From: Bacillus bingmayongensis
GTDB taxonomy: Bacteria; Bacillota; Bacilli; Bacillales; Bacillaceae_G
Assembly (NCBI RefSeq): GCF_000299035.1
Contig: NZ_JH921518.1
Span: forward strand, 780,439 to 844,438
Reading direction: 5' to 3'
Length of the DNA stretch: 64,000 nt
The position numbers and the translations under genes were made by a program. Below the pieces are notes generated by a model. The model was not told the DNA's origin, searched no databases, and saw only the letters and a program-made list of their open reading frames with translations. Shown piece by piece: positions 33,011-58,567 of the stretch (position 1 is its first letter; every line of letters begins with the position of its first letter).

Positions 33011-33330
33011 GACACTTGTTATGATGAGAATAGAAAAATAGAAATAAATAAGCTCTTTAATATTTTTGATAAACAAAAAAAATGCTCAATTTTTAAAATT
33101 CACTTCTGACAAAGCGCGGCGCAGTACATCTCAACTCCTATTAATATCCAAGCCATGCATTCCTTCCGTAATTTCACATTTGAATACGGTACCACTTTTG
33201 TTTTTTACATATAGAATGTGTAAATGGGAAGTTTGAACTAAAAGAATTCAAGATTAGCCAATTCAACCCTGGCACATAAAGAAAATGAACAGACTAAGAT
33301 AAAAATATTCTTGTAATCCTTTATAGTGTA

Positions 33331-33504
33331 ATTACATTTTTAATTGTTCTTGCTATGTTTATCGCTTTAATGTCAGAGAAATTCGAAGTTTATGCAGTAA
33401 TGGTTACCACGACGATTTTGTTTATGTTATTTGAAATCTTAACTTGTACTGAAACATTAAGCCGTTTTTCCAATGAAACAACATCAACTATTGGTGCTCA
33501 ATGA
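33331..33504 (+). pseudogene. N-terminal relic of an SLC13-type permease
   Basis: A 57-codon frame reads ITFLIVLAMFIALMSEKFEV, then VTTTILFMLFEILTCTETLS and RFSNETTSTIGA before a stop. This matches the first membrane segments of SLC13/CitT-like permeases (ILTPxEALSGFSNxxxxTIGAL). No start codon context is present and the remaining gene is missing. Confidence 0.4.
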
Positions 33505-33722
33505 TTACAGCTTCTACTATTAAGAACAATTATTTACTGATAAGAATCAAAATGAACTTTCTTAAAAGGAAAAATCATTATCATTTCATCGTTAATAAAG
33601 GCGGCCTTGAAGAGTCCAAACTTTATAAAGCTAGTTCATAAGTCCATTCATTTATAGTTTAGTTAACATATGTATATAGAGTGCCAGAATAGCTTAATTT
33701 ACTATCTCTTGGAGATGAGAAG
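33505..33722. other. Region between relics
   Basis: AT-rich sequence without a gene. A ribosome site (GGAGATGAG) at its right end belongs to the gmd relic. Confidence 0.3.
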
Positions 33723-34022
33723 ATGAAGAAAGCTTTGATAACTGGTATCTCTAGACAAGATTGTTCCTATTTAGCAAATTTTTCATTAAGTAAAAATTAT
33801 AAAGTGCATGGACTAAAGAGCAGTTCGGCCACAACAAATAATAAAAATATTAAACGATTTAAGGGAGAAATTGAATTTGTATCTAGTGGCTTGTTAGATA
33901 TAAGTTCATTAATTGAAGCAGTAAAAATAGCAGAACCCGATGAGGTTTATCATTTGATTGCTCAATCATTTGAAGAAAACTCATGGCTACAGTATCTATA
34001 CAGGGTAAACAACAGCTCTTGA
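33723..34022 (+). pseudogene. Truncated and mutated gmd-like gene (GDP-mannose 4,6-dehydratase)
   Basis: 99 codons. It begins MKKALITGISRQDCSYLANF, against the family MKKALITGITGQDGSYLAEF. GLLDISSLIEAV and PDEVYHLIAQSF follow, standing for the family PDEIYNLAAQSH. The Gly-rich cofactor loop has lost two glycines (GxxGQDG to SRQDC). The frame ends after about 100 of the usual 330-370 residues. A ribosome site remains, so a short product may be made, but it cannot be an active dehydratase. Confidence 0.65.
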
Positions 34023-35160
<1,138 letters not shown>

Positions 35161-35161
35161 G

Positions 35162-36616: not shown

Positions 36617-36790
36617 AATAAAGCTGTATTTCTTACCAGAGACGACAAGAATTCGAAATTTTGATGTTCTCTATATGAATGAGAAGCCCACACACGACAT
36701 GAGGTTTCTGGATAAAGTTATATAGGAGAAAATTCACATATCCTTACATTATTTATTACGCGAGTTCTTTAACTAGGAGGCAACATGTAG

Positions 36791-37798
36791 ATGTTTTTTA
36801 AAGATAAGAAAGTACTAATTATTGGTGGAACGGGTACCATCGGCCGAAGTTTATTGACCCATATTCTTGACGAAGACCCAAATGTTGTCAGGATTTTTAG
36901 TAGAGACGAGTATAAGCAATTCATGTTACAAAGCGAAATAGGGAGCAATAATCCAAAGCTTCGTTATTTAATTGGCGATATTCGAAATTACGACCGTGTG
37001 TACAGCGCGATGGAGGACATTGATTATGTGTTTCATGTTGCTGCGATGAAGCACGTTACCTTTTGTGAATACAATCCTTATGAGGCAGTATTGACTAATA
37101 TTGTTGGTACCCAAAATGTCATAAAAGCAGCTATTGCCCAAGATGTGAAAAAAGTTGTATTTACCAGCTCAGATAAAGCAATTTCGCCAACTAATAATTA
37201 CGGTGCTACAAAACTCACCGCCGAAAGACTCATTAGTTCTGCTGAATATTCGAAGGGTTCTAGTAATACAATCTTCTCGAGTGTAAGATTCGGCAATGTG
37301 ATGGGATCAAGAGGTTCGGTTATTCCTCTATTTGTGAATCAAATAAAGGAAAATAAAAAAATAACCGTTACAGACCTCAGTATGAGCCGATTTATGATGA
37401 CACTCAAACAGGCAACAACGCTGACAATCGAGGCTATGAAAATATCAACCGGCGGAGAAACATTCGTTTTAAAAATGCCTGTTATCTCTTTGAATGATCT
37501 TGCTTATGTTGTTATGGAAGAAGTTTCAAAAAAATATAATATACCTATCGATAAGCTCAAAATTGAAGAAATCGGCTTACGGCCGGGCGAAAAGAGATAT
37601 GAAGAATTGATGACTTATGATGAATCCATGTATGCATTAGAATTGCCAAATATGTTTATCATTCCGACATTCTTCAAAAAGAATCTAAATTATAAAAATA
37701 CAAAAAAAGCTACACCGGGAACTTATCAATCCGATAATCAAAAGCCCATTACAAAAGAAGAGCTTCGTCAATTAATACAAAGTGAAAAGTTGATATAA
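36791..37798 (+). CDS. UDP-GlcNAc dehydratase/epimerase of the PseB/CapD type
   Basis: 335 residues, extended SDR. The cofactor loop is GGTGTIGRSL (13-22), then FHVAAMKHVTFCEYNPYEAV (about 84-103). The catalytic region TSSDKAISPTNNYGATKLTAE carries YxxxK (about 137-141). RFGNVMGSRGSVIP and GLRPGEKRYEELM (about 258-270) are signatures of PseB/FlaA1/CapD enzymes. These make UDP-4-keto-6-deoxy-HexNAc for pseudaminic acid. In B. thuringiensis this step is done by two SDRs, Pen and Pal. This gene and the next may be that pair. TAGGAGG lies 13 bases before the ATG. Confidence 0.82.
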   Translation: MFFKDKKVLIIGGTGTIGRSLLTHILDEDPNVVRIFSRDEYKQFMLQSEIGSNNPKLRYLIGDIRNYDRVYSAMEDIDYVFHVAAMKHVTFCEYNPYEAVLTNIVGTQNVIKAAIAQDVKKVVFTSSDKAISPTNNYGATKLTAERLISSAEYSKGSSNTIFSSVRFGNVMGSRGSVIPLFVNQIKENKKITVTDLSMSRFMMTLKQATTLTIEAMKISTGGETFVLKMPVISLNDLAYVVMEEVSKKYNIPIDKLKIEEIGLRPGEKRYEELMTYDESMYALELPNMFIIPTFFKKNLNYKNTKKATPGTYQSDNQKPITKEELRQLIQSEKLI

Positions 37799-37815
37799 AA
37801 AGGAGGAGAATACAC

Positions 37816-38766
37816 ATGAACGTTTTAGTAACTGGAGGTACAGGTTTCATTGGGAGATGGGTCGTTAAAAGATTGCTGCAAGATAACCATCAAGTATGGA
37901 TACTCGATAATCTAGCAAATTCAAAAATTGCCAACATTGACGAGTTTTCAGGAATTTCAAACCTAAAAAAATTCATACTCGGAGATATTAAAGACGAACA
38001 ACTTCTGGATCACATATTTCAAACTCATCAATTCGATATTTGTTACCATCTTGCGGCAAGCATTAATGTTCAAGACAGTATTGACGATCCTAAAACAACA
38101 TTTGAAAATGATACAATCGGCACTTTCAACCTTCTAGAACAATGCCGTAAACATCATGTGAAGATGGTCTTTATGAGCACGTGCATGGTCTATGACCGCG
38201 CTTCTAATCCAAGTGGTATATCGGAAACAGATCCGATAAAACCCGCTTCTCCGTATGCAGGTGCAAAAATTGCTGCTGAAAATATGGTTCTTTCTTATTA
38301 CTATGCCTATGACTTGCCCGTTGTAGTTGTTCGGCCGTTTAATACGTACGGACCTTTTCAAAAAACAGGCGGCGAAGGTGGGGTTGTAGCTATTTTTATC
38401 AACAATAAATTAGATGGAAAACCACTCAGTATTTACGGAAATGGAACACAAACAAGGGATTTACTTTATGTAGAAGATTGTGCAGAATTTGTTGTTATGG
38501 CTGGATATTCGAAAAAGGCAAACGGCCACATCATCAATGCGGGAACTGGGAGAGATATTCCGATTAATGAATTAGCACTGCTCATCTCGGGTAATCCTTC
38601 AACTATTCAACATGTCCAACATATTCATCCTCAAAGTGAGATTCAAAAGCTGTTATGCAACTATTTGAAAGCTAAGGACTTACTGAATTGGAAACCTAAA
38701 ATAAGCCTTGAGGAAGGTATCAAAAAAACAGAAGAATGGATCAAATCAACTAAAAACAACATATAA
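37816..38766 (+). CDS. NAD-dependent epimerase/dehydratase (nucleotide sugar)
   Basis: 316 residues, extended SDR. GGTGFIGRWVVKRLL (7-21) binds NAD. YHLAASINVQDS (about 77-88) and STCMVYDRASNPSG (about 117-130) precede the catalytic SPYAGAKIAAEN with YxxxK (about 145-156). YGNGTQTRDLLYVEDCAEF (about 202-220) is typical of GalE/WbpP-type UDP-sugar enzymes. KAGGAGG-type ribosome site (AAAAGGAGGAG) is present. It lies between the PseB-like and PseC-like genes, so it probably acts on the same UDP-GlcNAc route, either as the partner dehydratase (compare Pen/Pal) or as a C-4/C-5 epimerase. Confidence 0.75.
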   Translation: MNVLVTGGTGFIGRWVVKRLLQDNHQVWILDNLANSKIANIDEFSGISNLKKFILGDIKDEQLLDHIFQTHQFDICYHLAASINVQDSIDDPKTTFENDTIGTFNLLEQCRKHHVKMVFMSTCMVYDRASNPSGISETDPIKPASPYAGAKIAAENMVLSYYYAYDLPVVVVRPFNTYGPFQKTGGEGGVVAIFINNKLDGKPLSIYGNGTQTRDLLYVEDCAEFVVMAGYSKKANGHIINAGTGRDIPINELALLISGNPSTIQHVQHIHPQSEIQKLLCNYLKAKDLLNWKPKISLEEGIKKTEEWIKSTKNNI

Positions 38767-38781
38767 GGAGTATTGAGGAGC

Positions 38782-39981
38782 ATGAAGCATTGTTTAGCAA
38801 TTCATGGAGGAATACCTATACGAGAGCACTATTTGCCATATGGGAAACAATTCATTGACGAAGATGATATTCAGGCAGTAATAAACGTTTTAAAAGGTGA
38901 TTTTATTACAACGGGTCCAATGATAAAACATTTTGAAGAACAGGTAGCAACTTATGTGGGTGCGAAATATGCCGTTGCATTCTCAAGTGGAACGGCAGCC
39001 CTGCATGGAGCTTGTTTTGCTGCGGGGATATCCGATGGTGATGAAGTCATTACGACACCAATGACATTCGTGGCCAGTGCCAACTGTATCCTTTATCAAG
39101 GAGGAGTTCCGGTATTTGCGGATATTAAATGCGATACTTACAATATTGATCCTGAGTCAATAAAAGACAAGATTACAACTAAAACAAAGGCGATTATACC
39201 TGTTCATTTTACAGGACAGCCCGCTGAACTTGATAAAATTCTTAAGATTGCTCAAGAATACAACTTAATCATAATAGAAGATGCTGCCCATGCGTTAGGG
39301 GCTACGTATAAAAATAAAAAAATCGGTTCGATTGGCGATATGACCATGTTCAGCTTTCATCCCGTCAAACATATTACAACAGGCGAGGGTGGAATCATTA
39401 CAACAAATGATGAAGAGTATTATCAAAAACTTCTCCAGTTCCGCACACATGGAATTACTCGTGATCTTGACAAATTAATTGATAATCACGGTCCTTGGTA
39501 CTATGAAATGCAATTTCTTGGCTATAATTATCGGATGACAGATATCCAAGCAGCTCTTGGTCTATCCCAACTGCAAAAATTAGATTCTTTTATTTCCAAA
39601 AGGAAAAAGTATGTGGCGTTGTATCATGCGGAACTAAAAGAGTTGCCTGAAATTATTCTTCCAAAGCAATTAAATCATATTGATTCGAGTTGGCATTTAT
39701 ATGTAATTCGATTAAATTTACCGATGCTAAAAGTTAACAGAAAAGAAATCTTTCAAGCATTGCAGAAAGAAAATATCGGTGTCAATGTTCATTATATTCC
39801 GGTGCACACACAACCATTTTACAGACAAATGGGATATACGTTAGGAATTTGCCCTCATACAGAAAGGATATATGAAGAGCTAATCACATTGCCGTTGTAT
39901 TCTGGGATGACCGAAAAGGATGCAAAGGATGTTATCAAAGCTGTAAAAAAAGTAGTGAACTATTACTCAAAACTTAAATAA
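38782..39981 (+). CDS. spsC: PLP aminotransferase, PseC/SpsC type (DegT/DnrJ family)
   Basis: 399 residues from the ATG at 38782; AAGGAG lies 11 bases upstream. It transfers an amino group to C-4 of the UDP-4-keto-6-deoxy sugar. Motifs: FSSGTAALHGA (about 64-74), IEDAAHALGATYKN (about 170-183), the PLP lysine in MFSFHPVKHITTGEGG (about 192-207, K198-199 region), and FLGYNYRMTDIQAALG (about 249-264). These fit UDP-4-amino-4,6-dideoxy-AltNAc transaminases. It is the third gene in the B. subtilis sps order as well. Confidence 0.87.
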   Translation: MKHCLAIHGGIPIREHYLPYGKQFIDEDDIQAVINVLKGDFITTGPMIKHFEEQVATYVGAKYAVAFSSGTAALHGACFAAGISDGDEVITTPMTFVASANCILYQGGVPVFADIKCDTYNIDPESIKDKITTKTKAIIPVHFTGQPAELDKILKIAQEYNLIIIEDAAHALGATYKNKKIGSIGDMTMFSFHPVKHITTGEGGIITTNDEEYYQKLLQFRTHGITRDLDKLIDNHGPWYYEMQFLGYNYRMTDIQAALGLSQLQKLDSFISKRKKYVALYHAELKELPEIILPKQLNHIDSSWHLYVIRLNLPMLKVNRKEIFQALQKENIGVNVHYIPVHTQPFYRQMGYTLGICPHTERIYEELITLPLYSGMTEKDAKDVIKAVKKVVNYYSKLK

Positions 39982-39996
39982 TTAAGGGGGAATAGT

Positions 39997-40980
39997 ATGA
40001 AAGAAACAAAGAAAAATACTTCACTAAGATTTGTCGCCAATAAAGAAATAAAAGAAGGTGAAATCATCACAATTGAAAAAATCAGTTGTAAAAAATGTAA
40101 AAATGCTAAAGCTCTCATACCTCTAAAAGCAAAAGAGCTACTATCCCAGATTGCGAGAACGACGATACAGGCAAATGAACCTATAACATTAGAAGATATC
40201 GAAAAACCTAAAATTACCATAGCTGTCATCTGTCGACTGAAATCGACTCGCTTACCCAAAAAAGCACTGCTACCTATAAATGGGATTCCTTCAATTGAAC
40301 GCTGCCTTTTAAATTGTCTGGCAATCCCTGAAGCCGACCAGGTGGTTTTAGCTACTTCCCATCTTCCTGAGGATGATCCGCTTGAAAAATTTACAATGGA
40401 CGGAAGAGTAAAAATCGTAAGAGGCGATCCGGACAATGTTGCCGAACGGATGCTCCAAGCAGCCGAATTGACGAATGCGAATATTATTATTCGCATAACA
40501 GGAGATGACCCAGCTGTTTCACCTGAAATCACCAGCTATTTAATTCAACAACACTTAAAAAGCGGAGCAGATTTCACCCAAGCAAAAACAAGTCCAATGG
40601 GAGTTGCAAGTAATGTAATAACCGTCGAAGCGCTCCGTCGCCTTACGAACTATCCAAAACCATTAACCCATACTGAATACCTTTCTTTTTATTTTATCAA
40701 TAATCCTTCGCTTTTCTCTATAAATAACGTTGAGTTGCCAACAGAATTTGACTATCCTTCCTGGCGTTTAACATTAGACGAACCCAAAGATTTAGAAATG
40801 TTTGAAGAACTATACAAAAATCTTAATGTGAAAAGGAAACCCTTATTCTTTCAACAATTAAAAGAATATATAGTTAATAATCCAAAAATTACTCAAATCA
40901 ATAAAGATATATCTGTAAAGTGGATTGACCAAAAGTCATTAGTTGAGGAAATAAACCAGGCAACTTTACTTGAATCATAA
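39997..40980 (+). CDS. spsF: SAF domain fused to a CMP-sugar cytidylyltransferase (SpsF/PseF type)
   Basis: 327 residues. Residues about 8-72 look like a SAF domain (LRFVANKEIKEGEIITIEKI, then ARTTIQANEPITLEDIEKP), as at the C-terminus of NeuB/PseI. Residues 75-290 are a cytidylyltransferase: VICRLKSTRLPKKALLPING (about 77-96), QVVLATSHLPEDD, IVRGDPDNVAERML (about 130-143) and IIIRITGDDPAVSP (about 152-165). It should activate the nonulosonic acid as a CMP-sugar. AAGGGGGAAT precedes the ATG. The domain fusion may link synthase and activating enzyme. Confidence 0.82.
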   Translation: MKETKKNTSLRFVANKEIKEGEIITIEKISCKKCKNAKALIPLKAKELLSQIARTTIQANEPITLEDIEKPKITIAVICRLKSTRLPKKALLPINGIPSIERCLLNCLAIPEADQVVLATSHLPEDDPLEKFTMDGRVKIVRGDPDNVAERMLQAAELTNANIIIRITGDDPAVSPEITSYLIQQHLKSGADFTQAKTSPMGVASNVITVEALRRLTNYPKPLTHTEYLSFYFINNPSLFSINNVELPTEFDYPSWRLTLDEPKDLEMFEELYKNLNVKRKPLFFQQLKEYIVNNPKITQINKDISVKWIDQKSLVEEINQATLLES

Positions 40981-41010
40981 ATCTAGTGTGTAATTATAGG
41001 AGTCGTGAAT

Positions 41011-41952
41011 ATGACCAATTTTAAAAAAAATAATTATGTATCTAAATTAACATTAGGAACTGCCCAATTGGGGAATCATTACGGAATCGCAAATAAAACT
41101 GGAATGCCAACAAGGGAAAAAAGTTTGGAGATAATTGATTATGCAATTTGTCATGGAGTCGATTCGTTAGATACTGCATCAGGATATGGTGATTCTGAAG
41201 TATTAATCGGGGAGTATATAGAAAGCCAAAAGTTTGAAAACACTGAAAAAACACCTTCTGTCATTACTAAAATACCTTCTGTACATTCAAACAGTCTCCT
41301 AACTTTTGATGAACGCTATCAATTTATGGAGAAAACTATTTCAGATTCATTAGCTAGACTCAGACTTTCACAACTTGATAGTTGTTTGTTGCATGATCCC
41401 TTAGACATAATTGCTCATCATGGAGAAGTCGTTCAACATCTCATTAAATTCAAGAAAAATCACCTTGTAAAGAAAATCGGTGTGTCTGTTTACGAACCCA
41501 AAGAAATCGAGACTGTAATCGAATTGGATTGTTTTGATGTCATTCAAGTACCTATTAATATATTTGATCAACGTTTGATAAAAACAGGTTTATTAAAGAA
41601 ATTATGTGCATCTAATATCGAAATATACGGAAGAAGTATCTATCTGCAAGGACTATTACTCATGTCCCCAAGTGAACTGCCAGATCATTTAAAAGATGCT
41701 AAAATACCTTTGAATAAATTAGAAATATTAGCCAAAGATTTACGATTAAGTGTAATGGAAATGGCAATGTTGTATATCAGAGATCTTCCAGAGATATTAA
41801 AAATAATTATTGGTTGCGAAACTATGGAGCAATTAAAACACAATCTTCAAATTATAAATTTACCGCCATTAACAGAAAGTATTGTGAATGAAATACAAGA
41901 TGTCTTTCAAGATTTACCCAACAAAATAATTGATCCAAGAAAATGGAGTTAG
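41011..41952 (+). CDS. Aldo/keto reductase family protein
   Basis: 313 residues from the ATG at 41011 (TAGGAG eight bases upstream). Barrel motifs: LTLGTAQLGNHYG near the start, SLDTASGYGDSEVLIGE (about 49-65) with the catalytic Asp and Tyr, SCLLHDP in the middle, and IGVSVYEPKE (about 152-161). The catalytic Lys region reads VITKIPS. AKR genes recur in sps-type loci of Bacillus. In this position it could reduce a keto-sugar intermediate or a CMP-sugar. No exact substrate can be read. Its stop lies eight bases before the next gene. Confidence 0.75.
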   Translation: MTNFKKNNYVSKLTLGTAQLGNHYGIANKTGMPTREKSLEIIDYAICHGVDSLDTASGYGDSEVLIGEYIESQKFENTEKTPSVITKIPSVHSNSLLTFDERYQFMEKTISDSLARLRLSQLDSCLLHDPLDIIAHHGEVVQHLIKFKKNHLVKKIGVSVYEPKEIETVIELDCFDVIQVPINIFDQRLIKTGLLKKLCASNIEIYGRSIYLQGLLLMSPSELPDHLKDAKIPLNKLEILAKDLRLSVMEMAMLYIRDLPEILKIIIGCETMEQLKHNLQIINLPPLTESIVNEIQDVFQDLPNKIIDPRKWS

Positions 41953-41959
41953 ATCATTT

Positions 41960-42751
41960 ATGAATACAAATAATCTTTTTGACTTAACGGGAAAAGTAGT
42001 TGTTGTGACAGGAGGCGCAGGCTATTTAGGTCAAGCAATTTCAGAAGGGATAGCCGAGGCTGGTGCTACCGTTTACATTGTTAGTTCAAATGAGGAGAAA
42101 TGTAAAGTACTCAGTGAAGAATTATCAAAAAAAAATAGAACAAAATGCAAGAGCGGTTATTTAAATATTCAAGATGAGCTGACAATACAGGACTGCTTTT
42201 CTAAAATCATAGAGGAAAATGGAAAAATTGATGTACTCATAAATAATGCTTCTTTCAGCGCTCTTGGGAATGCTGAATCTATGACAGAGTCTAATTGGCT
42301 AAAAGGTTTTGATGGCACAATTAATGGAGTTTTTCGATGTACAAAGGCCGTCTTACCAATCATGATTGACCAAAAAGGTGGGAGCATTATTAACGTATCT
42401 TCCATGTATGGAATTGTTTCCCCAAATCCAGAGATTTATGGAAATAGCGGTTTAAATAATCCGCCAAACTACGGAGCTGGAAAAGCGGCAATTAACCAAT
42501 TCACTCGTTATGTGGCATGTCACTATGGAAAATATGGAATTAGGACAAATTCAGTTTCACCTGGACCGTTTCCTAATGAGGAGATTCAAAAAAACACATC
42601 GTTTATTGAACATTTAAAAAACAAAAATCCACTTGGACGAATCGGGAAACCAGAAGATTTAAAAGGAGTTATGGTTTTTTTGGCTTCCTCCGCTTCTAGC
42701 TATATTACCGGAGAAAACATTTGTATAGATGGTGGATGGACGGCTTGGTAG
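41960..42751 (+). CDS. SDR oxidoreductase, PtmA-like
   Basis: 263 residues from the ATG at 41960; GGAG lies 11 bases upstream. Classical SDR: VVVTGGAGYLGQAISEGIAE (about 13-32), INNASF (about 95-100), NVSSMYGIVSP with the catalytic Ser, then PNYGAGKAAINQF with YxxxK (about 169-181). CIDGGWTAW ends the protein. It resembles PtmA-type SDRs in legionaminic/pseudaminic loci. It may oxidise or reduce the nonulosonic acid or a precursor. A 200-base gap separates it from pseH, so a new transcription unit may start there. Confidence 0.75.
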   Translation: MNTNNLFDLTGKVVVVTGGAGYLGQAISEGIAEAGATVYIVSSNEEKCKVLSEELSKKNRTKCKSGYLNIQDELTIQDCFSKIIEENGKIDVLINNASFSALGNAESMTESNWLKGFDGTINGVFRCTKAVLPIMIDQKGGSIINVSSMYGIVSPNPEIYGNSGLNNPPNYGAGKAAINQFTRYVACHYGKYGIRTNSVSPGPFPNEEIQKNTSFIEHLKNKNPLGRIGKPEDLKGVMVFLASSASSYITGENICIDGGWTAW

Positions 42752-42949
42752 AGACCAATTATAGATAACCTATAAAGTAAGACATTATCGCAATAAGATT
42801 TCCTAATTTTAAAAATACTGTTATGTTTATAATCTTTCTCACTTGACGATGTACTACGTTTATCACAAAAAAAGACAGAAAAGTTTTATATTAACTACCA
42901 TGTTGAACAAAACATTTAATAACAATTTATAAGGAGGGTAGAGTATCTT
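42752..42949. other. Intergenic gap before pseH
   Basis: About 200 AT-rich bases, the longest gap in the spsA-pseI series. It may hold an internal promoter; no terminator is obvious. Confidence 0.3.
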
Positions 42950-43504
42950 ATGAATGTTTGTTTAAGAAAAATAGAAGAAAAAGATTTGGAAATGATTATG
43001 AATTGGCGGACGTTACCTGAAGTAACAAAATACATGTATACAGACCCTATACTTACTTTAGAAGATCAAATAAAATGGTACAAAAAAATCATGGCATCTG
43101 ATGCGGAAAAATACTGGATTATAAGATTAGAAGATGGTACAGATGTAGGGGTACTAAGCCTTAATAATATTGATATAAAAAATAAGCATTGTTCGTGGGG
43201 ATATTATATTGCTGATATAACTGCTAGAGGGAAAGGGCTAGGCAGAATTTTAGAATGTAATATATATGATTATGTATTTTTTAAAATGAATTTAAATAAA
43301 TTATGGGGTGAAGTATTTGAATTCAACGAGAAAGTGATAAAAATACATGAAAGATTTGGTTCAAGAATTGAAGGGAAATTTAGAGAACATATACACAAGA
43401 ATGGAGAATTTTACGATGTTGTACGTGTGGCAATTACTAAAAAGGAATGGAAAAAAATCAAATCTACTTATGAATATGATTTATTAAATATAATGGAATA
43501 TTAG
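42950..43504 (+). CDS. pseH: GNAT N-acetyltransferase, PseH type
   Basis: 184 residues. AAGGAGGG is upstream. It acetylates the 4-amino group of UDP-4-amino-4,6-dideoxy-AltNAc with acetyl-CoA. MIMNWRTLPEVTKYMYTD (about 14-31) is a hallmark of PseH. HCSWGYYIADITARGKGLGR (about 79-98) holds the acetyl-CoA loop, and EVFEFNEKVIKIHERFG lies near 120-136. Base composition is more AT-rich than in the genes at 37-41 kb, which suggests a mosaic operon. Confidence 0.85.
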   Translation: MNVCLRKIEEKDLEMIMNWRTLPEVTKYMYTDPILTLEDQIKWYKKIMASDAEKYWIIRLEDGTDVGVLSLNNIDIKNKHCSWGYYIADITARGKGLGRILECNIYDYVFFKMNLNKLWGEVFEFNEKVIKIHERFGSRIEGKFREHIHKNGEFYDVVRVAITKKEWKKIKSTYEYDLLNIMEY

Positions 43505-43625
43505 AGTACACAATTCTAGATATTTTATTACTCACCTTTAATATAAGTGGAATGACTAATAATACTAACAAATATAAATACAGGTATTTATATAATCTAT
43601 TAATTTTATTTTAGGAATGGATATT
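43505..43625. other. Short gap before pseG
   Basis: AT-rich, no ORF. TTAGGAATGG at its right end serves as ribosome site for the ATG at 43626. Confidence 0.3.
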
Positions 43626-44711
43626 ATGAAAATAGTATTTCGAGTTGATTCTTCAAGGCAAATAGGTACGGGACATATCATACGCTGTTTAACTTTAGCT
43701 GGAGAATTAAAAAATTGTGGACATCAGGTAATTTTTATATCCAGAGAACTAGAGGGCCATATGTGTAACTTTATAAAAGATCAAGGATATACAGTGTATA
43801 CGTTACCCAAGATGGTTCTGGTAAGAAATAATTGCGATACCACGCATGCCCAATGGCTTCAAACTAGTTGGGAAATAGATGCCCAGCAAACAATAGATAT
43901 TATAAAAAGGAACTTAAACCATGTTGATTGGATAATTGTAGACCATTATGCTTTAGACAAAAAGTGGGAAGAAAAATTGAAAGAGTTCACACAATATATA
44001 ATGGTTATAGATGATTTAGCAGATAGATCACATATATGTAATCTGCTATTAGATCAAAATTATTATAAAAATATGGAGCAAAGGTATAAAGGACTAATCC
44101 CAAACCATTGTATAAAACTTTTAGGTACCCGATATGCATTACTAAGACCAGAATTTCTAAAAGAACGGAAAAATTTGAGAAAAAGGGATAGCTTCCTTAA
44201 AACAATATTTATATTTTTTGGCGGGAGTGATTCCACCAATGAGACCTATAAAGCAATCAAGGCTCTAGAAAAAATTGATTGTAAACAACTTCGTATTGAT
44301 GTAGTTGTTGGTCAATCAAATCCTCAAAAAGGGATTATACAGGATTTATGTAGAAAGCATTCGAATATGAACTTCCATTGCCAAATTAATTATATGTCTA
44401 GATTAATGAGCGAAGCAGACTTAGCCATATGTGCTGGGGGTTCAACGACTTGGGAGAGATATTGTTTAGGCTTACCTGCAATATTGGTTTCAGTAGCGCA
44501 TAATCAGGTTGAAATATGTGAAACAGTAGGAAGTTTAGGTGTTGATTTTTATATCGGGAAATCAGAAGAAGTTCATGAGAAGGATATTAGTAATGCCATT
44601 GAGATTGTTAAGAGCGGAAACTTTGATTTAGAGAAATCCTCTAGAAAAGCACTAAAAATTGTGGACGGTTTTGGGAAAACACGTGTAGTATCAGAGGTTT
44701 TACAATATTAA
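43626..44711 (+). CDS. pseG: UDP-sugar hydrolase, PseG type
   Basis: 361 residues from the ATG at 43626, chosen for the AGGA spacing; an ATG at 43617 is alternative. PseG removes UDP from UDP-2,4-diacetamido-2,4,6-trideoxy-AltNAc. The N-terminal RVDSSRQIGTGHIIRCLTLA (4-23) with GxGHxxR is diagnostic. VDHYALDKKWE (about 115-125) and MVIDDLADRSHICNLLLDQN (about 136-155) follow. The C-terminal ICAGGSTTWERYCLGLPAI (about 277-295) is the UDP-binding part. Related to B. subtilis SpsG. Confidence 0.9.
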   Translation: MKIVFRVDSSRQIGTGHIIRCLTLAGELKNCGHQVIFISRELEGHMCNFIKDQGYTVYTLPKMVLVRNNCDTTHAQWLQTSWEIDAQQTIDIIKRNLNHVDWIIVDHYALDKKWEEKLKEFTQYIMVIDDLADRSHICNLLLDQNYYKNMEQRYKGLIPNHCIKLLGTRYALLRPEFLKERKNLRKRDSFLKTIFIFFGGSDSTNETYKAIKALEKIDCKQLRIDVVVGQSNPQKGIIQDLCRKHSNMNFHCQINYMSRLMSEADLAICAGGSTTWERYCLGLPAILVSVAHNQVEICETVGSLGVDFYIGKSEEVHEKDISNAIEIVKSGNFDLEKSSRKALKIVDGFGKTRVVSEVLQY

Positions 44712-44728
44712 ATGTTAAGGGGGATATT

Positions 44729-45307
44729 ATGAATATTCTGTTATTAGGATCTAACTGTAATAATATATACAGTTTTCTTAAATCATCTGGAAATCGTGTT
44801 GTTTTGTATGAGAATAGACTAGACATTCATTCACCTATTCTTATTAATATTGACTTTATTATCAGCTATGGATACAAATATATGATTCCTCCTTCCATTA
44901 TTGAAAAATTTAATAACAAAATTATAAATTTGCATATATCTTATCTTCCTTGGAATAAGGGTGCTGATCCAAATTTATGGAGTTTTCTTGAAGATACACC
45001 TAAAGGGATTACAATTCATTATATAAATAACAGCTTAGATACGGGAGATATTATCGCTCAATTGGAAGTTCCCTACAAAGAAAATGATACATTAAAAACC
45101 TTCTACGATAGACTATGCCAAGAAATAGAACAACTTTTCATTGAAAATTGGAAATTCATTTGTTCTGGAAAAGTTATGAGGAAACCGCAACCTTCTGGCG
45201 GTAGTTATCATAGATTAAAAGATAAAAAAAAATATTTGCATTTACTTACTGATGGATGGAATACCTCAGTAAAAGATATAATCGGTAAAGCAAAAATGAA
45301 TGGTTAA
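44729..45307 (+). CDS. Formyltransferase-family protein in the nonulosonate operon
   Basis: 192 residues. The fold is that of 10-formyl-tetrahydrofolate-dependent transferases. The catalytic Asn-His-Asp triad is visible: N67 and H69 in INLHISYLPWNKGADPN and the Asp in NSLDTGDIIAQ (about 101-111). AAGGGGG precedes the ATG. It sits between PseG and PseI, so an amino group on the Pse precursor or product is the likely acceptor. That would give an N-formylated sugar in place of, or beside, N-acetyl. Length is close to the catalytic domain alone, without a C-terminal extension. Confidence 0.8.
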   Translation: MNILLLGSNCNNIYSFLKSSGNRVVLYENRLDIHSPILINIDFIISYGYKYMIPPSIIEKFNNKIINLHISYLPWNKGADPNLWSFLEDTPKGITIHYINNSLDTGDIIAQLEVPYKENDTLKTFYDRLCQEIEQLFIENWKFICSGKVMRKPQPSGGSYHRLKDKKKYLHLLTDGWNTSVKDIIGKAKMNG

Positions 45308-45322
45308 AAAGGAGAAGATAAA

Positions 45323-46372
45323 ATGAATGAAATTGAAATTAATGGAAGAAAAATAAGTCGCAACCACCAACCATTTATCATTGCTGAAATGTCTGGAAAC
45401 CATAATCAGTCATTAGAACGTGCATTAAAAATAGTTGAAGCTGCCGCAAAAGCTGGAGCACATGCTCTGAAAATTCAAACTTACACAGCTGATACTATGA
45501 CGCTGGATATGGATAACAAAGAGTTTAAAATAGAAGATTCAGATAGCTTATGGAAAGGCAACACGCTTTATAAACTATATCAACAAGCATATACCCCTTG
45601 GGAATGGCATAAACCGATATTTGATCGATGTAATGAACTAGGGATGGTACCGTTTAGCACTCCGTTTGATGAAACAGCTGTTGATTTCTTAGAGTCCCTA
45701 AATGTCTCCTGTTATAAAATTGCTTCTTTTGAAAATACCGATATTCCTCTAATCCGTAAAGCTGCCTCTACTGGAAAACCACTCATTATATCTACAGGTA
45801 TGGCTACAATTGCAGAATTAGATGAGACTGTCAAAGCCGCTAGAGAAGCAGGTTGCAAAGACCTTATTTTGTTGAAATGCACGAGCACGTACCCGGCCTC
45901 CCCAGAAAACACTAATATTTATACAATCCCTCATATGAGGGATTTATTCCAATGTGAAGTAGGTTTATCAGACCATACATTAGGAGTGGGAGTAGCGGTT
46001 TCCAGTGTCGCAATGGGAGCGACTGTAATTGAAAAGCATTTTACTTTATCCAGAGCCGACGGAGGAGTAGATTCCGTATTTTCACTGGAGCCAGAAGAAC
46101 TGAAATCCCTTGTTATCGAAACAGAACGGGCATGGAAATCTCTAGGGAAGATTTATTACGGGCCGACTGATATGGAAAAAAACTCATTAAAGTTTCGACG
46201 GTCTTTATATGTGGCACAAGATATGAAAGCTGGAGATCTTTTCACATCAGAAAATATAAAAGCGGTTCGTCCGGGTTATGGTTTGGCTCCAAAATACCTT
46301 CCTATTTTACTAGGAAGAAAAGTAAAAAATGATATCACTAAGGGAACACCTGTGAGTTGGGATTTGATTTAA
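45323..46372 (+). CDS. pseI: Pseudaminic acid synthase
   Basis: 349 residues. AAGGAG lies upstream of the ATG. It condenses PEP with 2,4-diacetamido-2,4,6-trideoxy-L-altrose. FIIAEMSGNHNQSLERALKI (about 18-37) has the MSGNHN motif that separates PseI from NeuB (EAGxNH). KIQTYTADTMT, FSTPFDETAVDFLE (about 111-124), STGMATIAEL, YPASPENTN and GLSDHTLGVGVAV (about 215-227) follow. A SAF domain occupies about 285-349. It corresponds to B. subtilis spsE. Last gene of the series; a terminator follows 145 bases on. Confidence 0.92.
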   Translation: MNEIEINGRKISRNHQPFIIAEMSGNHNQSLERALKIVEAAAKAGAHALKIQTYTADTMTLDMDNKEFKIEDSDSLWKGNTLYKLYQQAYTPWEWHKPIFDRCNELGMVPFSTPFDETAVDFLESLNVSCYKIASFENTDIPLIRKAASTGKPLIISTGMATIAELDETVKAAREAGCKDLILLKCTSTYPASPENTNIYTIPHMRDLFQCEVGLSDHTLGVGVAVSSVAMGATVIEKHFTLSRADGGVDSVFSLEPEELKSLVIETERAWKSLGKIYYGPTDMEKNSLKFRRSLYVAQDMKAGDLFTSENIKAVRPGYGLAPKYLPILLGRKVKNDITKGTPVSWDLI

Positions 46373-52959: not shown

Positions 52960-53700
52960 ATGAAATACGACATTATCGGGGATATTCACGGCTGTTTAGA
53001 AGAGTTTCAAACGTTAACAGAGCAGCTCGGCTATCATTGGAAAAGTGGACTTCCAGTTCATCCAGAGGGACGACAGCTCGCTTTCGTCGGTGACATTACA
53101 GATCGCGGTCCAGCCTCCCTTCGAATGATTGAAATTGTGTGGGAGCTTGTTATGAATAAAAAAGTAGCTTATTATGCTCCTGGCAATCATTGTAATAAGT
53201 TGTACCGATTTTTCATTGGGCGTAATGTAACAATCGCACATGGACTAGAAACGACCGTCGCTGAATATGAAGCATTGCAGACTCGTGAACAGAAAATAAT
53301 ACAGAAAAAATTTATTGATCTTTACGAACAGTCACCACTCTATCACGTGCTTGATAATAAAAAGCTCATCGTTTGTCACGCTGGTATTCGTCAAGATTAT
53401 ATCGGCAGAAGTGATAAGAAAGTCCAGACTTTCGTATTATATGGTGATATTACAGGTGAAAAGCATCCCGACGGCTCTCCCGTTCGCCGTGATTGGGCTA
53501 AGCATTATGAAGGGAAGGCGTGGATTGTATACGGACATACCCCTGTCGCAGAACCTCGTTTTGTCAATCATACGGTAAATATTGATACAGGGGCTGTATT
53601 TGGCGGGAAACTAACAGGACTGCGCTATCCAGAAATGGAGACAATTTCAGTCCCTTCTTCGATGCCGTTTGTACCTGAGAAATTTCGTCCAATTACATAA
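52960..53700 (+). CDS. prpE: Bis(5'-nucleosyl)-tetraphosphatase PrpE
   Basis: 246 residues, metallophosphoesterase of the PPP family. Metal-site motifs: GDIHGC (7-12), [10 protein letters not shown] (about 42-51), GNH (about 75-77, in APGNHCNK), and VCHAGIRQD with VYGHTP further on (about 143 and 197). PrpE hydrolyses Ap4A and has been linked to spore germination in B. subtilis. GATGGGGGTC precedes the ATG. Its terminator has been split by the IS cassette that begins 20 bases after the stop. Confidence 0.9.
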
Positions 53701-53717
53701 TAAATAAAGCTGCCCTC

Positions 53718-53720
53718 ATA
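53718..53720. repeat. Target-site duplication, left copy (ATA)
   Basis: ATA directly precedes the left IS end; the same triplet directly follows the right end at 57660-57662. Three-base duplications are usual for IS3-family elements. Confidence 0.6.
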
Positions 53721-53722
53721 TG

Positions 53723-53771
53723 AACTGCACCCCAATTGTTAGACACAGTCTAACAATTGGAGGTACAGTTT
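53723..53771 (+). terminator. Hairpin at the left IS end
   Basis: AACTG(C)ACCCCAATTGTTAGAC is nearly self-complementary to GTCTAACAATTGGAGGTACAGTT, around ACA, followed by TTTTTAT. It would stop transcription entering the element from prpE and hide the orfA ribosome site in readthrough RNA. Confidence 0.6.
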
Positions 53772-53775
53772 TTAT

Positions 53776-53985
53776 ATGGCTAAATTTTCTTCAAAAGGAA
53801 AAATACGAGCGGTGAGACGATATTTAGAGGGTACTGAAGGTGGAAAAGCAATTGCTAAATCTATAGGTGTGGATCCCAGTATACTCTATCAGTGGATTAG
53901 ACGACATGAATCTTTAGGTGAGAAGGCTTTTAAAAAATGCTATACATCCTACCCAACAGATTATAAACTAGATGTACTTCATTAA
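53776..53985 (+). pseudogene. orfA remnant of the IS3-type transposase
   Basis: 69 codons. A helix-turn-helix head of IS3 OrfA: FSSKGKIRAVRRYLEGTEGG, then IAKSIGVDPSILYQWIRRHE and PTDYKLDVL. The frame stops right after LDVLH, where family members continue for another 50-100 residues. The downstream 80 bases do not resemble the rest of orfA, so this is the left junction of the foreign segment. Confidence 0.75.
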
Positions 53986-54061
53986 AGAAGAAATTGATAA
54001 AGTCTTGCCGTGGTCAACGGATTTACCGTCTAGTTACAGAGTGCCGAAAAAAAGTGAAGCA

Positions 54062-54108
54062 AACAAAAAATAACTCCAAAATCAACTTTTATTGTAGATT
54101 TTGGAGTT
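54062..54108 (-). terminator. Terminator of the GTPase gene
   Basis: A 12-bp perfect stem AACTCCAAAATC with a 13-base loop is followed by ATTTTTTG on the minus strand, just after the stop at 54118. Confidence 0.8.
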
Positions 54109-54117
54109 ACTTTACGT

Positions 54118-56943
54118 TTACTCTATGTTTGTTTCTAAAGTTAAATCTGTATAGGAATTATCCTCACCTATATTTAAGATTACTTCACATTGACGTAATC
54201 TCAATTCAAAGAGCGTTATAGCATCATGATAAACTTCAGGATTTGATTTCATTTTATGCAGTGTATCTTGTTTTTCTTGTATTTCTAAATGAGTGTTTTC
54301 TACAGCTTGTTTCAACGCGCCAAATGGATTTCTAAAGAATATATTAATATCCCGCTCTAGTGCGTTTTCAAATAGCTCAAATTGCAAGAAAAATTTGTTC
54401 ATAATAGAAGCCGTTACATCGGTATAATCTTCATTTTCTAAATACTGTTTGTATTTGTTATATAGCATAGCTTTATTTTTAGGAAGAACTCCAAATAATT
54501 TACCGGCACTTTTCAGTAAAAATTGTGCTGGTGTAAATCGGCGTAAGATATTTACTTCTTCCATTTGTATTCTAGTTGTCATTCTATCAGTATCTCTGCG
54601 CCAGTCATCAAGCACTTTAAAGTCACATTCTAACTGTATTCGATTTTCTCCACATAAAGAATTAAGTCCTTCACTGATTTCTTCTAAGTACGATTGACTT
54701 TGAAGGAACTCGTTATTAGAAGTTGCAATCCAATTTTGCATAGAGCGAGCAAGATCAGGTAACACAGTTTGTTCTAGATATTTTTGAACTCTTTCGTTCA
54801 TCGCTGTATTTAGTTCAATATCAATGTGCCCAAAATCGCTTTCTTCACTAATTAAATCAGAACAACTCTGCAATAGTTTCGGAATATGTTCTGTAAGATC
54901 ATTAGTAATTTCGTTTTTCATTGTACGATATGATTCTGTAATGAAATGAATTTTTTCCTTCTCAAAAGCAGTAAGGTTATTAATACAACCATTTAGTTTA
55001 ACTAACATATCTTCATTCCAATTAATAGAATCCACTAGGTTGTTTTCCATCTTAACGCGTTTATCCAAAAGATATGTAATTGTTTTTCGAATGAAAAACA
55101 ATAGCTTTTCAGTACGTTCTGCATCGATATTTTTATGGTTAAAGTTAAAATGAATAAACTCAGTTAAATCGTTTAGTTGTTGACTATTTGTATATAACGA
55201 AGAGTAAGGGAAAATTCTCGCATGCGGGAAATATGCATTTATTCTCGCTTGCGTATCATGTATAACTCTTTTTGCTTCTGCTTCACTGTAAATGTTATCG
55301 ACTTTATTTAATAAGAAATGAATTTGTAGATTTGGTGTATGTTCTTGAATACTTAATAGAATGTCACGTTCTTTGTCAGTAAAAGGTGAATCCGCATTCA
55401 ATACGAATAATAATTCGTCTACAGAATTTAAATATTCGAATGTCTCATCTCTAGTGTCGTTGTTCCTATTAAAGCTAGGTGTAACAACAAATGTAAGTTT
55501 ATTTTTACTTAAAAATCTGCATGGTAATTTAAATTCAACACATGCTCTATCTCTATATGTTTGGCGGTGCAAGGACATCATGTTATGAAAATCAGAGAAA
55601 TTCTCAGTTGTTGTAATTGCTGAATCTGTTATAGCGTTAATTTCTGTATGAGCGTCATTTTTAAAGACAACTACATTTGAGATTGAGTTTTCTAATATAT
55701 TTTCTCCTAGTATAGAGTTAATAAATGAAGCTTTTCCGTTTCCTGAAGTTCCAGTTACTAAAAGGCGATTTGTTCTTACATCTGCAAGCTCGCCAACTAA
55801 CCATTTAAATCGATGACCAATTTCTAAATCATGTTTTTGTGCCCACTGTGTAATGGATTCAAAAAGATGTAAACTATACTCTAAGCCATTCACATGATTA
55901 ACAGAATATGACAGTAGGTTTTCCGCATGTTTTATATTTGCTGAATCTATTTTGGAAGGGAAAATCTCATCCCATGCCAATACTGCTGCAGATGGAATTA
56001 CAGAATGCGACGGATTGGCTACCTTTAACCAATTTGTTAAAAAATTTGGAATGATATCGTGTAATTGTCTTAGCATATATTGACCTTGAATTAATTCAAA
56101 GTACGTTTCTTCGTAAAGAGAAGAAATTTTGTCCCATATATCGGACGAATGTATTTCGATATGTAAGAAAAATTCATTTATTGTTTTAAGCCATAATAAG
56201 TAATTTTGTTCATTTTTATAGCTATGCCAAAGTGATGAAACAATTTGCGTAAATTGTACTTGATCTACATTATTTAATGTAACTAATACTTCATAAAAAT
56301 AATCTGGTGAAATATTTTTAGTAAATCCTTTATCGATATATTCTTTTAAAACCTCAAACCATAGAAAAGATTCTGTTCGAATTAACTCATTCACAGCAAG
56401 CTCTACTGCACTGTCAAAATCTTGCTGTTCTTCATAAAAGGAACGTGCAATTGGTGTGACGTTTGGATAATCGGGATTTAAAGAAACCGCTTCTTTAATA
56501 ACAGCGAAAGCTGAATCTAGATTATTTTGCTCGATGTAAAGAGACAGTAATTGCAGTGCAATTTCGGTCATAAGTATTTTGTTATCAGTAGTAATCGAGG
56601 TATAAACATTTTCAGCAACTGATAATTGGTTAAGTTCGAAGTAAGCATCCGCAATATTTTTTTGTGCCCATGGTGCTAATTCATTACTGACTTTCTCCCA
56701 TTTAAAAATAGCTGTTTCAAAATCTTGATGGTGATAATAAAATTCACCTTGTGCAAAACGAATGTAAGATCCATCGGAAATCTCATTTTTTTGTTCGTTT
56801 AAATATGCTTCTCCAAGTACTTGAAGAGGTGGATGTGCTTCATTCTCCATTAGGAATGTTTCATAATATATCTTTTTTATTAATTGTTTTTCTAATCTCA
56901 TTTTTTCCCCCACTACATCTTGAAAAAGTATATTTTTCTCCAT
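54118..56943 (-). CDS. TPR-containing dynamin-like GTPase, IS passenger
   Basis: 941 residues. Residues about 40-200 contain TPR-like helical repeats (AQGEFYYHHQDFETAIFKWE, then NIADAYFELNQLSVAENVY). A GTPase domain starts near 390: RLLVTGTSGNGKASFINSIL (393-412) is the P-loop, and LLNKVDN (544-550) is the G4 motif. The P-loop has Ala405 where Ser/Thr normally binds magnesium. The G3 region reads VVTPSFNRNND in place of DxxG. The C-terminal 330 residues are long helices rich in Glu, Lys and Asn with a hydrophobic patch around 795-815, as in bacterial dynamin-like proteins. The family is unnamed to me. A membrane-remodelling or defence role is possible but unproven. Confidence 0.75.
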   Translation of the reverse strand: MEKNILFQDVVGEKMRLEKQLIKKIYYETFLMENEAHPPLQVLGEAYLNEQKNEISDGSYIRFAQGEFYYHHQDFETAIFKWEKVSNELAPWAQKNIADAYFELNQLSVAENVYTSITTDNKILMTEIALQLLSLYIEQNNLDSAFAVIKEAVSLNPDYPNVTPIARSFYEEQQDFDSAVELAVNELIRTESFLWFEVLKEYIDKGFTKNISPDYFYEVLVTLNNVDQVQFTQIVSSLWHSYKNEQNYLLWLKTINEFFLHIEIHSSDIWDKISSLYEETYFELIQGQYMLRQLHDIIPNFLTNWLKVANPSHSVIPSAAVLAWDEIFPSKIDSANIKHAENLLSYSVNHVNGLEYSLHLFESITQWAQKHDLEIGHRFKWLVGELADVRTNRLLVTGTSGNGKASFINSILGENILENSISNVVVFKNDAHTEINAITDSAITTTENFSDFHNMMSLHRQTYRDRACVEFKLPCRFLSKNKLTFVVTPSFNRNNDTRDETFEYLNSVDELLFVLNADSPFTDKERDILLSIQEHTPNLQIHFLLNKVDNIYSEAEAKRVIHDTQARINAYFPHARIFPYSSLYTNSQQLNDLTEFIHFNFNHKNIDAERTEKLLFFIRKTITYLLDKRVKMENNLVDSINWNEDMLVKLNGCINNLTAFEKEKIHFITESYRTMKNEITNDLTEHIPKLLQSCSDLISEESDFGHIDIELNTAMNERVQKYLEQTVLPDLARSMQNWIATSNNEFLQSQSYLEEISEGLNSLCGENRIQLECDFKVLDDWRRDTDRMTTRIQMEEVNILRRFTPAQFLLKSAGKLFGVLPKNKAMLYNKYKQYLENEDYTDVTASIMNKFFLQFELFENALERDINIFFRNPFGALKQAVENTHLEIQEKQDTLHKMKSNPEVYHDAITLFELRLRQCEVILNIGEDNSYTDLTLETNIE

Positions 56944-57382
56944 GTGTCAACACTTTTTTGTATTTATGCTTTTTTATTTTAACAAAGAATTTCTTTTGGA
57001 AAATTTCACTTTTCTTTCATTTTTTAAGTAAGATTGAATTTTAATGAGAAAAGTTTCAGTTTTTTTTCAATTTCCTTTCAGTTGTGAAACAACATTAGAT
57101 GTTCCTAATAACTTAATTCGAATATAATATTCCACATTAAGTTGCAACATTCCATGTAGAGTTCGTTATCAAAACTATGTATAGTGAATCTGTATGCCAT
57201 GTTTGCTTCGTTGATGGATAGGGTACAATGTGGAATAACGATAACTTTTATTTTTGCATGGATAAACGAAATACGACATTATTACACAAAAAAGTGCAAA
57301 TGTATCATCATAACATTTGCACTTTTTGCAATTACCCCTATCTTTATTATCATTGTAAAATGTCTAATCCCCTTGATTCCTC
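56944..57382. other. Upstream region of the GTPase gene inside the cassette
   Basis: It should hold the GTPase promoter on the minus strand. A near-perfect 15-bp palindrome AAAAAGTGCAAATGT with its complement, with A/T runs on both sides (57287-57328), works as a bidirectional terminator. No other gene is supported. Confidence 0.45.
57287..57328. terminator. Bidirectional terminator upstream of the GTPase gene
   Basis: AAAAAGTGCAAATGT (left arm) and ACATTTGCACTTTTT (right arm) enclose ATCATCATA. It isolates the passenger gene from transcription entering from the right. Confidence 0.7.
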
Positions 57383-57625
57383 ACAAAACGTGGCATTACA
57401 CAGAGTATGTCCCATAAAGGGAACTGTTACGATAACGCAGTAATTGAAAATTTCTTTGGTATCATGAAATCAGAATTTCTATATCGGAAAGAGTTTGAAA
57501 GTATACAACACTTTAAGCGAGAACTAGCAAAGTACATTGAATATATAATCATAAAAGAATTAAGACAAAACTAAAGGGCATGGACCCGGTACAATACCGG
57601 GCCCATGCCCAAGAAACTGTCTAAT
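57383..57625 (+). pseudogene. orfB 3' remnant of the IS3-type transposase
   Basis: The frame reads [20 protein letters not shown], then [20 protein letters not shown] and [10 protein letters not shown]. This is the end of the DDE domain of IS3 OrfB, where the last catalytic Glu lies in a block like NAVIENFF. After YIEY one base is inserted. The shifted frame continues [20 protein letters not shown] to a stop at 57625. The first two thirds of orfB, with the two catalytic Asp, are absent. Confidence 0.8.
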
Positions 57626-57634
57626 GAAATAACC

Positions 57635-57662
57635 TGTCTAACTTTATGGGGTCACTTCAATA
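57635..57662. repeat. Right IS end and right copy of the target duplication
   Basis: TGTCTAACTTTATGGGGTCA then CTTCA (57635-57659) is the inverted counterpart of the left end. ATA follows at 57660-57662. Confidence 0.7.
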
Positions 57663-57673
57663 CTGAAGGCAGC

Positions 57674-58567
57674 TTATTTCAATATTTCTTTCATATCTTC
57701 TGGCACATCCGCATGAAAGGTCATCTGTTTTTCTAAAATGGGATGATAAAACGTTAAACTCGTACTATGAAGCGCTTGCCGCTTCATCTGCGACGTACTA
57801 CCTCCATACAAGTCATCTCCTAACAGCGGATGTCCTAAATATGCCATATGTACACGAATTTGATGCGTTCTTCCTGTTTCTAATTGCAGTGAAACTCGCG
57901 TCTTATCAGGAAATCTCTCGATCACTTGAAAATGCGTCACTGCTTTTTGACCGTCTTCACATACAATTCGTTCAATAATGCTATCTTCTTTTCTTCCAAT
58001 CGGCGCATCAATCGTTCCGGACTCTTCTATCAATTCTCCATGAACAATTGCTTCATATGTTCGTTTCACTTGCTTTTCTTGATGCTGTTTTGATAAAAGG
58101 TGGTGAATGAAACGGTTTTTCGCAATAAGCATAAGCCCCGACGTATCACGATCCAGTCTCGTTACAATATGCACTGTACTCGCAAGATTCTGTCTATCAT
58201 AATGATAAAGAAGCGCATTCGCAACACTTCCGGCCGGATGTTCCCTTGATGGAATAGTTGACATGTGTGGTTCTTTATTGATTACCAGTACAGATTCATC
58301 CTCATACAGGACAGTTAGCGGAATATTTTCAGCCAGCATCCCTTCACTTCTCTCCTCAACCGGAAAGAATACTTGCAATTCTTCCCGATCCTGTAATACG
58401 TGCCGTACCGTCGCATGCTTACCATCAACTTCAATTGCTCCGCCATGAAACTTTATATCTGTCAAAGCAGCTTTAGAAATTCCCTTCGTTTTTAAAAACT
58501 CCCGAATGAGCATTCCCTTCTCTGCTTCTGTCATACACCATTTTAATGTAAATCTTCTCACATGCAT
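57674..58567 (-). CDS. yjbO: RluD-family pseudouridine synthase, YjbO
   Basis: 297 residues. An N-terminal S4-like domain (about 15-75) with FLKTKGISKAALTDIKFHGG is followed by the catalytic module. The active-site Asp lies in IVTRLDRDTSGLMLIAKN (about 134-151). The C-terminal RTHQIRVHMAYLGHPLLGDDLYGG (split near 230-253) is the RNA-binding signature. It converts uridine to pseudouridine in rRNA or tRNA; the site is unknown. It lies ten bases after nadK in the order nadK-yjbO, as in B. subtilis. Confidence 0.9.
   Translation of the reverse strand: MHVRRFTLKWCMTEAEKGMLIREFLKTKGISKAALTDIKFHGGAIEVDGKHATVRHVLQDREELQVFFPVEERSEGMLAENIPLTVLYEDESVLVINKEPHMSTIPSREHPAGSVANALLYHYDRQNLASTVHIVTRLDRDTSGLMLIAKNRFIHHLLSKQHQEKQVKRTYEAIVHGELIEESGTIDAPIGRKEDSIIERIVCEDGQKAVTHFQVIERFPDKTRVSLQLETGRTHQIRVHMAYLGHPLLGDDLYGGSTSQMKRQALHSTSLTFYHPILEKQMTFHADVPEDMKEILK

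Follow-up and report, generated by a model that had tools for sequence, protein, structure and literature searches.

Within a 64,000-nucleotide stretch of the Bacillus bingmayongensis genome (contig NZ_JH921518.1; the whole stretch is referred to here as the window, and all positions are numbered from its first letter), the segment from 53721 to 57659 is the shell of an IS3-family insertion sequence (IS): both ends are intact and flanked by a target duplication, but a transposase gene is missing. This shell sits in a transcription terminator and encloses DNA of foreign origin, which carries a single gene for a TPR- and dynamin-like protein. The history that we favour, with a probability of about 0.5, is that of a non-autonomous cassette similar to the mobile insertion cassette (MIC) MIC231, which landed here as a unit. 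An earlier note on this DNA had proposed an IS3-type cassette of just this kind, and its ends, its duplication, the missing transposase and the one foreign gene indeed amount to the anatomy of a cassette.

The sequence confirms the observation behind this proposal. The left terminal repeat starts at 53721 with TGAACTGCACCCC and the right one ends at 57659 with GGGGTCACTTCA, their arms being 72% complementary over 25 nt and oriented as in an intact IS. Directly outside lie the two copies of the 3-bp target-site duplication ATA (53718-53720 and 57660-57662), so that both IS150-like ends and the repeat that the earlier note had reported are present in the sequence. The left end has a single match within the whole window at up to three mismatches (none in 100 shuffled sequences), and positions 53001-58500 hold a single pair of left and right ends. 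With TG...CA ends, a duplication in the 3-4 bp range, an orfA with a helix-turn-helix and relatives annotated as IS3 family transposase, the element belongs to the IS3 family, and presumably to its IS150-like subgroup. Both parts of the shell were compared with a full-length IS3 copy of 1455 bp from another genome (L082 in genome G403). The left part (53721 to 53984, plus strand), which comprises the terminal repeat followed by the first part of orfA, is 82% identical to this copy over 271 bp, and IS3 homology ends at 53984; the right part (57379 to 57659, plus strand), with the tail of orfB, an internal hairpin (57576-57610) and the terminal repeat, is 84% identical over 282 bp. The central portion of the IS is absent from the shell, which contains neither a full orfA nor a full orfB. 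What is left of orfA are the first 69 codons (53776 to 53985, plus strand), as the note had said, encoding a helix-turn-helix (Pfam HTH_Tnp_1, E 4.4e-9; NCBIfam transpos_IS3, E 9.5e-5, under the cut-off of that model) and ending at the junction. An orfB tail is present as well, but at about 60-80 codons it is somewhat less than the 'last third' announced; it starts at about 57379 according to BLAST, with a fainter similarity seen by eye in the alignment back to about 57350, and it is frame-broken, with an open frame of 64 codons versus 81 in the equivalent stretch of L082.

Between 53981 and about 57195 the interior is not IS3 DNA at all and shows 89-96% identity to chromosomal DNA of Viridibacillus and Rummeliibacillus, i.e. 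96% to V. soli, 94% to V. arenosi, 93% to V. arvi and 89% to R. suwonensis. This homology begins at 53957 (V. arenosi), 53980 (V. soli), 54052 (R. suwonensis) or 54065 (V. arvi) and ends at 57167-57195. Judged by such nucleotide identity, the interior is foreign, with a Viridibacillus-like source in another bacterial family. Its left edge is itself a remnant of a further mobile element, namely the last TnpC codons and the terminal GTAAAC end of an IS66-family IS (53981 to 54121, plus strand; 92% over 143 bp to locus L079 of genome G403, whose TnpC matches DDE_Tnp_IS66). The same piece is found apart from the passenger gene, at 90-92% identity, in five genomes (G403, G404, G071, G462 and G463), and three of these copies stop at positions equivalent to 54120-54122 of the window, i.e. 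in the very end that contains the stop codon of the passenger gene (54118-54120). The terminator hairpin behind the gene (54072 to 54108, minus strand, within inverted repeat I1) is also derived from IS66 and is retained in the related loci L001-L004 and L089. With its stop codon and its terminator both located in the end of the IS66 remnant, the gene probably owes its 3' end to an IS66 insertion in a common ancestor. At the other side, the upstream region of the gene (56944 to 57195, minus strand) has the same foreign origin (84-94% identity to L001-L004). The following stretch from 57196 to 57378, weakly IS3-like by eye from about 57350 on, could be matched to neither source: it had no match among plasmids or in any of 397 genomes of the order (with two candidates per genome scored in the order search), and only five of 261 genomes of the G001 family, which includes Viridibacillus, gave matches, all of them short and weak. 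It contains a perfect 15-bp hairpin (57289-57327, I18) bordered by runs of A and T, which is possibly the terminator of another gene that was carried along. An RNA element was set aside, as an Rfam scan of 53600-57800 gave no match at gathering score.

The passenger gene (54118 to 56943, minus strand) is the single opposite-strand gene that the earlier note had seen between the ends, and its reading frame is open throughout its 941 codons. The predicted protein matches Dynamin_N with 33.7 bits against a cut-off of 27, and TPR models match its N-terminal half, all under their cut-offs. An alignment profile finds the bacterial dynamin-like protein (BDLP) 2j68 (E 5e-10), mitofusins (about 1e-7 to 1e-5) and also IniA. 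By sequence profile, the likeness to BDLP and mitofusins consists in a homologous G domain, whereas the TPR-like N-terminal half and degenerate G1 and G3 motifs set the passenger's clade apart. In place of G1 (GxxxxGK(S/T)), the window and three Viridibacillus proteins have GTSGNGKA, while R. suwonensis has GKT; in place of G3 (DxxG), all five have VTPS, with DxxG present in nine of the 12 other aligned proteins; G4 (NKxD) is there as LNKVD. With G1 and G3 degenerate, GTP hydrolysis by this protein is therefore doubtful. Its product may be described as dynamin-like and possibly membrane-acting, and any more specific role would go beyond this homology. A function in anti-phage defence was set aside, since PADLOC models gave no family at E values up to 1 with the protein.

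The shell is located in the loop of a terminator shared by the convergent genes prpE and rlu, the latter encoding a pseudouridine synthase. The left half of the common hairpin (53697 to 53718, inverted repeat I5) pairs with the right half (57664 to 57685) at 77% over 22 nt, and flanks rejoined at a single ATA fold to -15.2 kcal/mol. That this is a habit of the IS type is suggested by a sample of 29 IS copies, non-redundant and including that of the window, in which the two ends are separated by 0.9-4.2 kb and at least 35 nt of flanking sequence are available; most were found because they resemble the IS ends of the window, and L015, a chance-like match, was excluded. Flank stems scored at least 8 in 16 of the 29 copies compared to 11.3% of 812 mispaired flank pairs, and the observed sum of stem scores was reached in none of 2000 permutations. 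For the folding energy of the joined flanks the corresponding count was 0 of 5000, with 11 of the 29 copies, the window not among them, passing the 5% control line. A duplication of at least 3 bp is present in 20 of the 29. As 13 copies score less than 8 (two of these have 13-14-nt matches beyond the permitted offset), related IS3 elements show a preference for intrinsic-terminator hairpins rather than following a rule. Among 19 genomes of the G381 family, the prpE-rlu gap could be read in 14; it measures 70-965 bp in these relatives, none of which has the passenger gene in it. The gene was therefore not seen at this locus without IS ends, and flanks conserved beyond the IS ends, the other finding that the earlier note would have taken as a refutation, were not seen either, as donor-type homology stops inside the ends.

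For the passenger gene, a genome scan with peptide patterns revealed 16 loci with relatives that are 44-94% identical, with 85-94% amino acid identity to the Viridibacillus and Rummeliibacillus proteins. A class I tRNA synthetase gene (E/Q type) is nearby in seven of 17 loci, all of them outside these two genera, which fits a gene that is inherited in place there. In Viridibacillus, Rummeliibacillus and G549, five genomes contain the gene at four different places: its flanks are common to V. arvi and V. arenosi but differ in V. soli, R. suwonensis and G549, and the arvi/arenosi flanks are also present in V. soli, where they enclose about 330 bp and not the gene. Synonymous divergence (dS) of the gene is 0.07 between the window and V. 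soli, 0.12 between V. soli and V. arenosi, 0.30 between V. soli and R. suwonensis and 0.42 between R. suwonensis and G549, and spans 0.07-0.42 across all 15 pairs. For NadK and FabI, dS reaches 0.53-0.98 between V. soli and V. arvi or V. arenosi, at least 1.25 or saturation between Viridibacillus and R. suwonensis or G549, 2.78 and 0.94, respectively, between R. suwonensis and G549, and at least 1.64 or saturation between the genome of the window and the three Viridibacillus species. V. arvi and V. arenosi, with the gene in a common place, behave as plain inheritance predicts (0.22 for the gene versus 0.24 and 0.14 for NadK and FabI). Differing places and a gene dS far under that of NadK and FabI between genera thus indicate that the gene moves between genera and does so also without IS3. 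Throughout, the ratio of non-synonymous to synonymous divergence (dN/dS) is 0.21-0.35 over the 15 pairs and 0.24-0.35 between the window and its five relatives, with window-V. soli the highest at 0.35, which suggests constraint on the gene.

Other vehicles were considered and rejected. The IS66 end points away from the gene, which lies outside that element. In G549, a repeat of about 230 bp resembling a miniature inverted-repeat transposable element (L089, 1273-1502) is found between the upstream region and the open reading frame; it has 20 matches in G549, 66 in G003, two weak ones in G001 and none in G002 and G004, with many partial copies in two genomes, and in the four remaining genomes with the gene no listed match of this repeat is adjacent to it. 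Carriage by phage or plasmid was likewise dismissed, the passenger protein having no match in either; six passenger peptide patterns as well as patterns for the left junction and the 5' edge found nothing in viral contigs.

The history that we favour for the locus would have begun with a Viridibacillus-like chromosomal piece, comprising the gene, its IS66-derived stop and terminator and its upstream region, that replaced the core of an IS3 copy. This cassette would have been assembled elsewhere, before landing, and would have moved as a single unit using a transposase acting in trans until it landed in the terminator loop between prpE and the pseudouridine synthase gene, thereby creating the ATA duplication. 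Such a landing as a unit would account for both the duplication and the foreign content with the fewest events, and the shell sits where its IS type prefers to land. Several observations weigh against it. With a broken orfB tail and partly mismatched terminator arms, the insertion is probably not fresh. The available flanks of the gene in V. soli, V. arenosi, V. arvi, R. suwonensis and G549 contain no IS3 end, and as the gene is thus present at other loci without such ends, it does not usually travel in an IS3 shell. A second IS-bounded copy was detected neither in the 261 G001-family genomes (two candidates scored in each) nor at 20 further left ends, six of which are on stretches of less than 4 kb before the contig ends, and an empty allele from the same species was not seen among the genomes covered; these limited searches give no support to the movement in trans envisaged by the earlier note. 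Another long IS3 shell, a plasmid copy of 2.7 kb (H13), turned out to hold two IS3 transposases and no passenger. Finally, the right part of the shell is 80-84% identical to IS3 copies of the G381 family compared to 77-79% at best in the G001 family, so that the passenger may have joined its shell within the lineage of the host itself; the kinship of the left part is ambiguous (82% over 271 bp in G403, 86% over 147 bp in G400 and 84% over 177 bp in G432, a G001-family genome).

The kinship of the right part also favours a different order of events, in which a full IS3 would have landed in the prpE-rlu terminator first and its core would later have been replaced by foreign DNA via illegitimate recombination at short homologies. 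The ends would then merely record an IS, and the gene would never have travelled as an IS3 cassette. Internally shortened IS3 remnants do occur in the same gap of two of the 14 relatives, G071 (contig C19, L088) and G134 (contig C1, L187), which also speaks against a landing as a unit; as they face opposite to the window's shell, they stem from an event other than that of the window, and the two may share one event. Furthermore, the left junction appears by eye to join two short look-alikes, from the IS3 orfA and from the gene flank of L004, and the gene reaches other loci without IS3. However, this history requires two illegitimate joins in one target of 1.45 kb after a separate transposition, and chance may account for the look-alike stretch, which is short. 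We consider it the main rival, though less likely than a landing as a unit.

A composite transposon, i.e. two IS3 copies in the same direction that bracketed the gene in a donor or plasmid, moved and then lost their inner arms, is improbable. The two IS parts are oriented as it would predict, and for an IS with a preference for terminators, insertions to the left and right of one and the same gene should be frequent. Yet there is one left end in the whole window instead of two IS copies around the gene, the available gene flanks of the five genomes lack any IS3 end, the passenger protein has no plasmid match, and the inner arms would have had to vanish without a trace. IS copies are frequent points of misassembly, and a passenger from another family could raise the suspicion that unrelated contigs were joined within a repeat; such an artefact is very hard to reconcile with junctions that both lie inside the shell rather than at its ends, and with an ATA duplication and terminator halves that match across the insertion.

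MIC231 of Bacillus cereus carries a passenger gene, and IS231, to which its ends belong, is an IS4-family element. MIC231 shares with the present cassette IS ends without a transposase, but here the ends are those of the IS3 family, the passenger has its origin in a different bacterial family, and movement in trans is putative. The unit has four traits of a MIC: terminal repeats of a single IS type that face each other, the lack of a functional transposase, a passenger unrelated to transposition (Dynamin_N), and the ATA/ATA duplication around the whole. A passenger unrelated to transposition is also the hallmark of a transporter IS (tIS), which keeps its own transposase, whereas no full orfA or orfB is present here, placing the unit outside that class. 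MIC231 is described as trans-activated by the IS231 transposase (PMC1196294), MICs are also treated in PMC6542083 and PMC3129680, and the latter describes as tIS those ISs whose passenger gene has nothing to do with transposition. The MIC concept and MIC231 are thus already in print. Targeting of a palindrome by IS3-family elements has a parallel in IS1397 and ISKpn1, which insert into repetitive extragenic palindromic (REP) sequences (PMC1525189); the targets here differ in that they are intrinsic terminators, unrelated to each other in sequence and located in Bacillales genomes, and in that they are only preferred. ISSau2 of Staphylococcus is given as an IS150-subgroup element (PMC5771124), and its target sites as being without sequence specificity, as cited in PMC4433286. 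In passages of PMC9208149, PMC6211511 and PMC7371123, terminators are not mentioned as targets of IS3, nor are passengers of IS3, and neither insertion of IS3 into terminators nor passengers in IS3 are reported in the titles and opening lines of abstracts among the best-ranked open-licence literature matches. Such negatives make a weak case for the novelty of terminator targeting and passengers in IS3; as far as these excerpts go, the terminator preference of related IS3 elements appears to be new.

Elsewhere in the window, positions 23636-24610 encode a protein of 324 aa that contains many near-identical EKEADVVEYREQ-type repeats, and 30440-46372 contains a cluster whose translations by eye resemble enzymes for the synthesis of nonulosonic acids (of the pseudaminic or legionaminic type) along with glycosyltransferases. 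Megablast of positions 40000-64000 against plasmids found nothing, and for ftsW-prpE the best nucleotide match in the 397 genomes of the order reaches 73% identity; the order of the genes is like that in B. cereus.

Overall, the passenger gene clearly exemplifies a dynamin-like protein that, by its places and its divergence, spreads across genera. A broader view can be offered only tentatively, namely that a dynamin-like gene wanders from one bacterial family to another in a terminator-homing cassette of the IS3 type and works wherever it has landed. In such a scenario, the shell would land harmlessly between transcription units, and the passenger would bring along its own upstream region as well as its IS66-derived stop and terminator. 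IS3 elements are among the commonest bacterial ISs, and any Bacillales genome can serve to measure how far this group prefers terminators. If the cassette moves, IS3 elements can carry chromosomal genes between families, and the habit of homing to terminators would, if true, explain why such cargo is tolerated.

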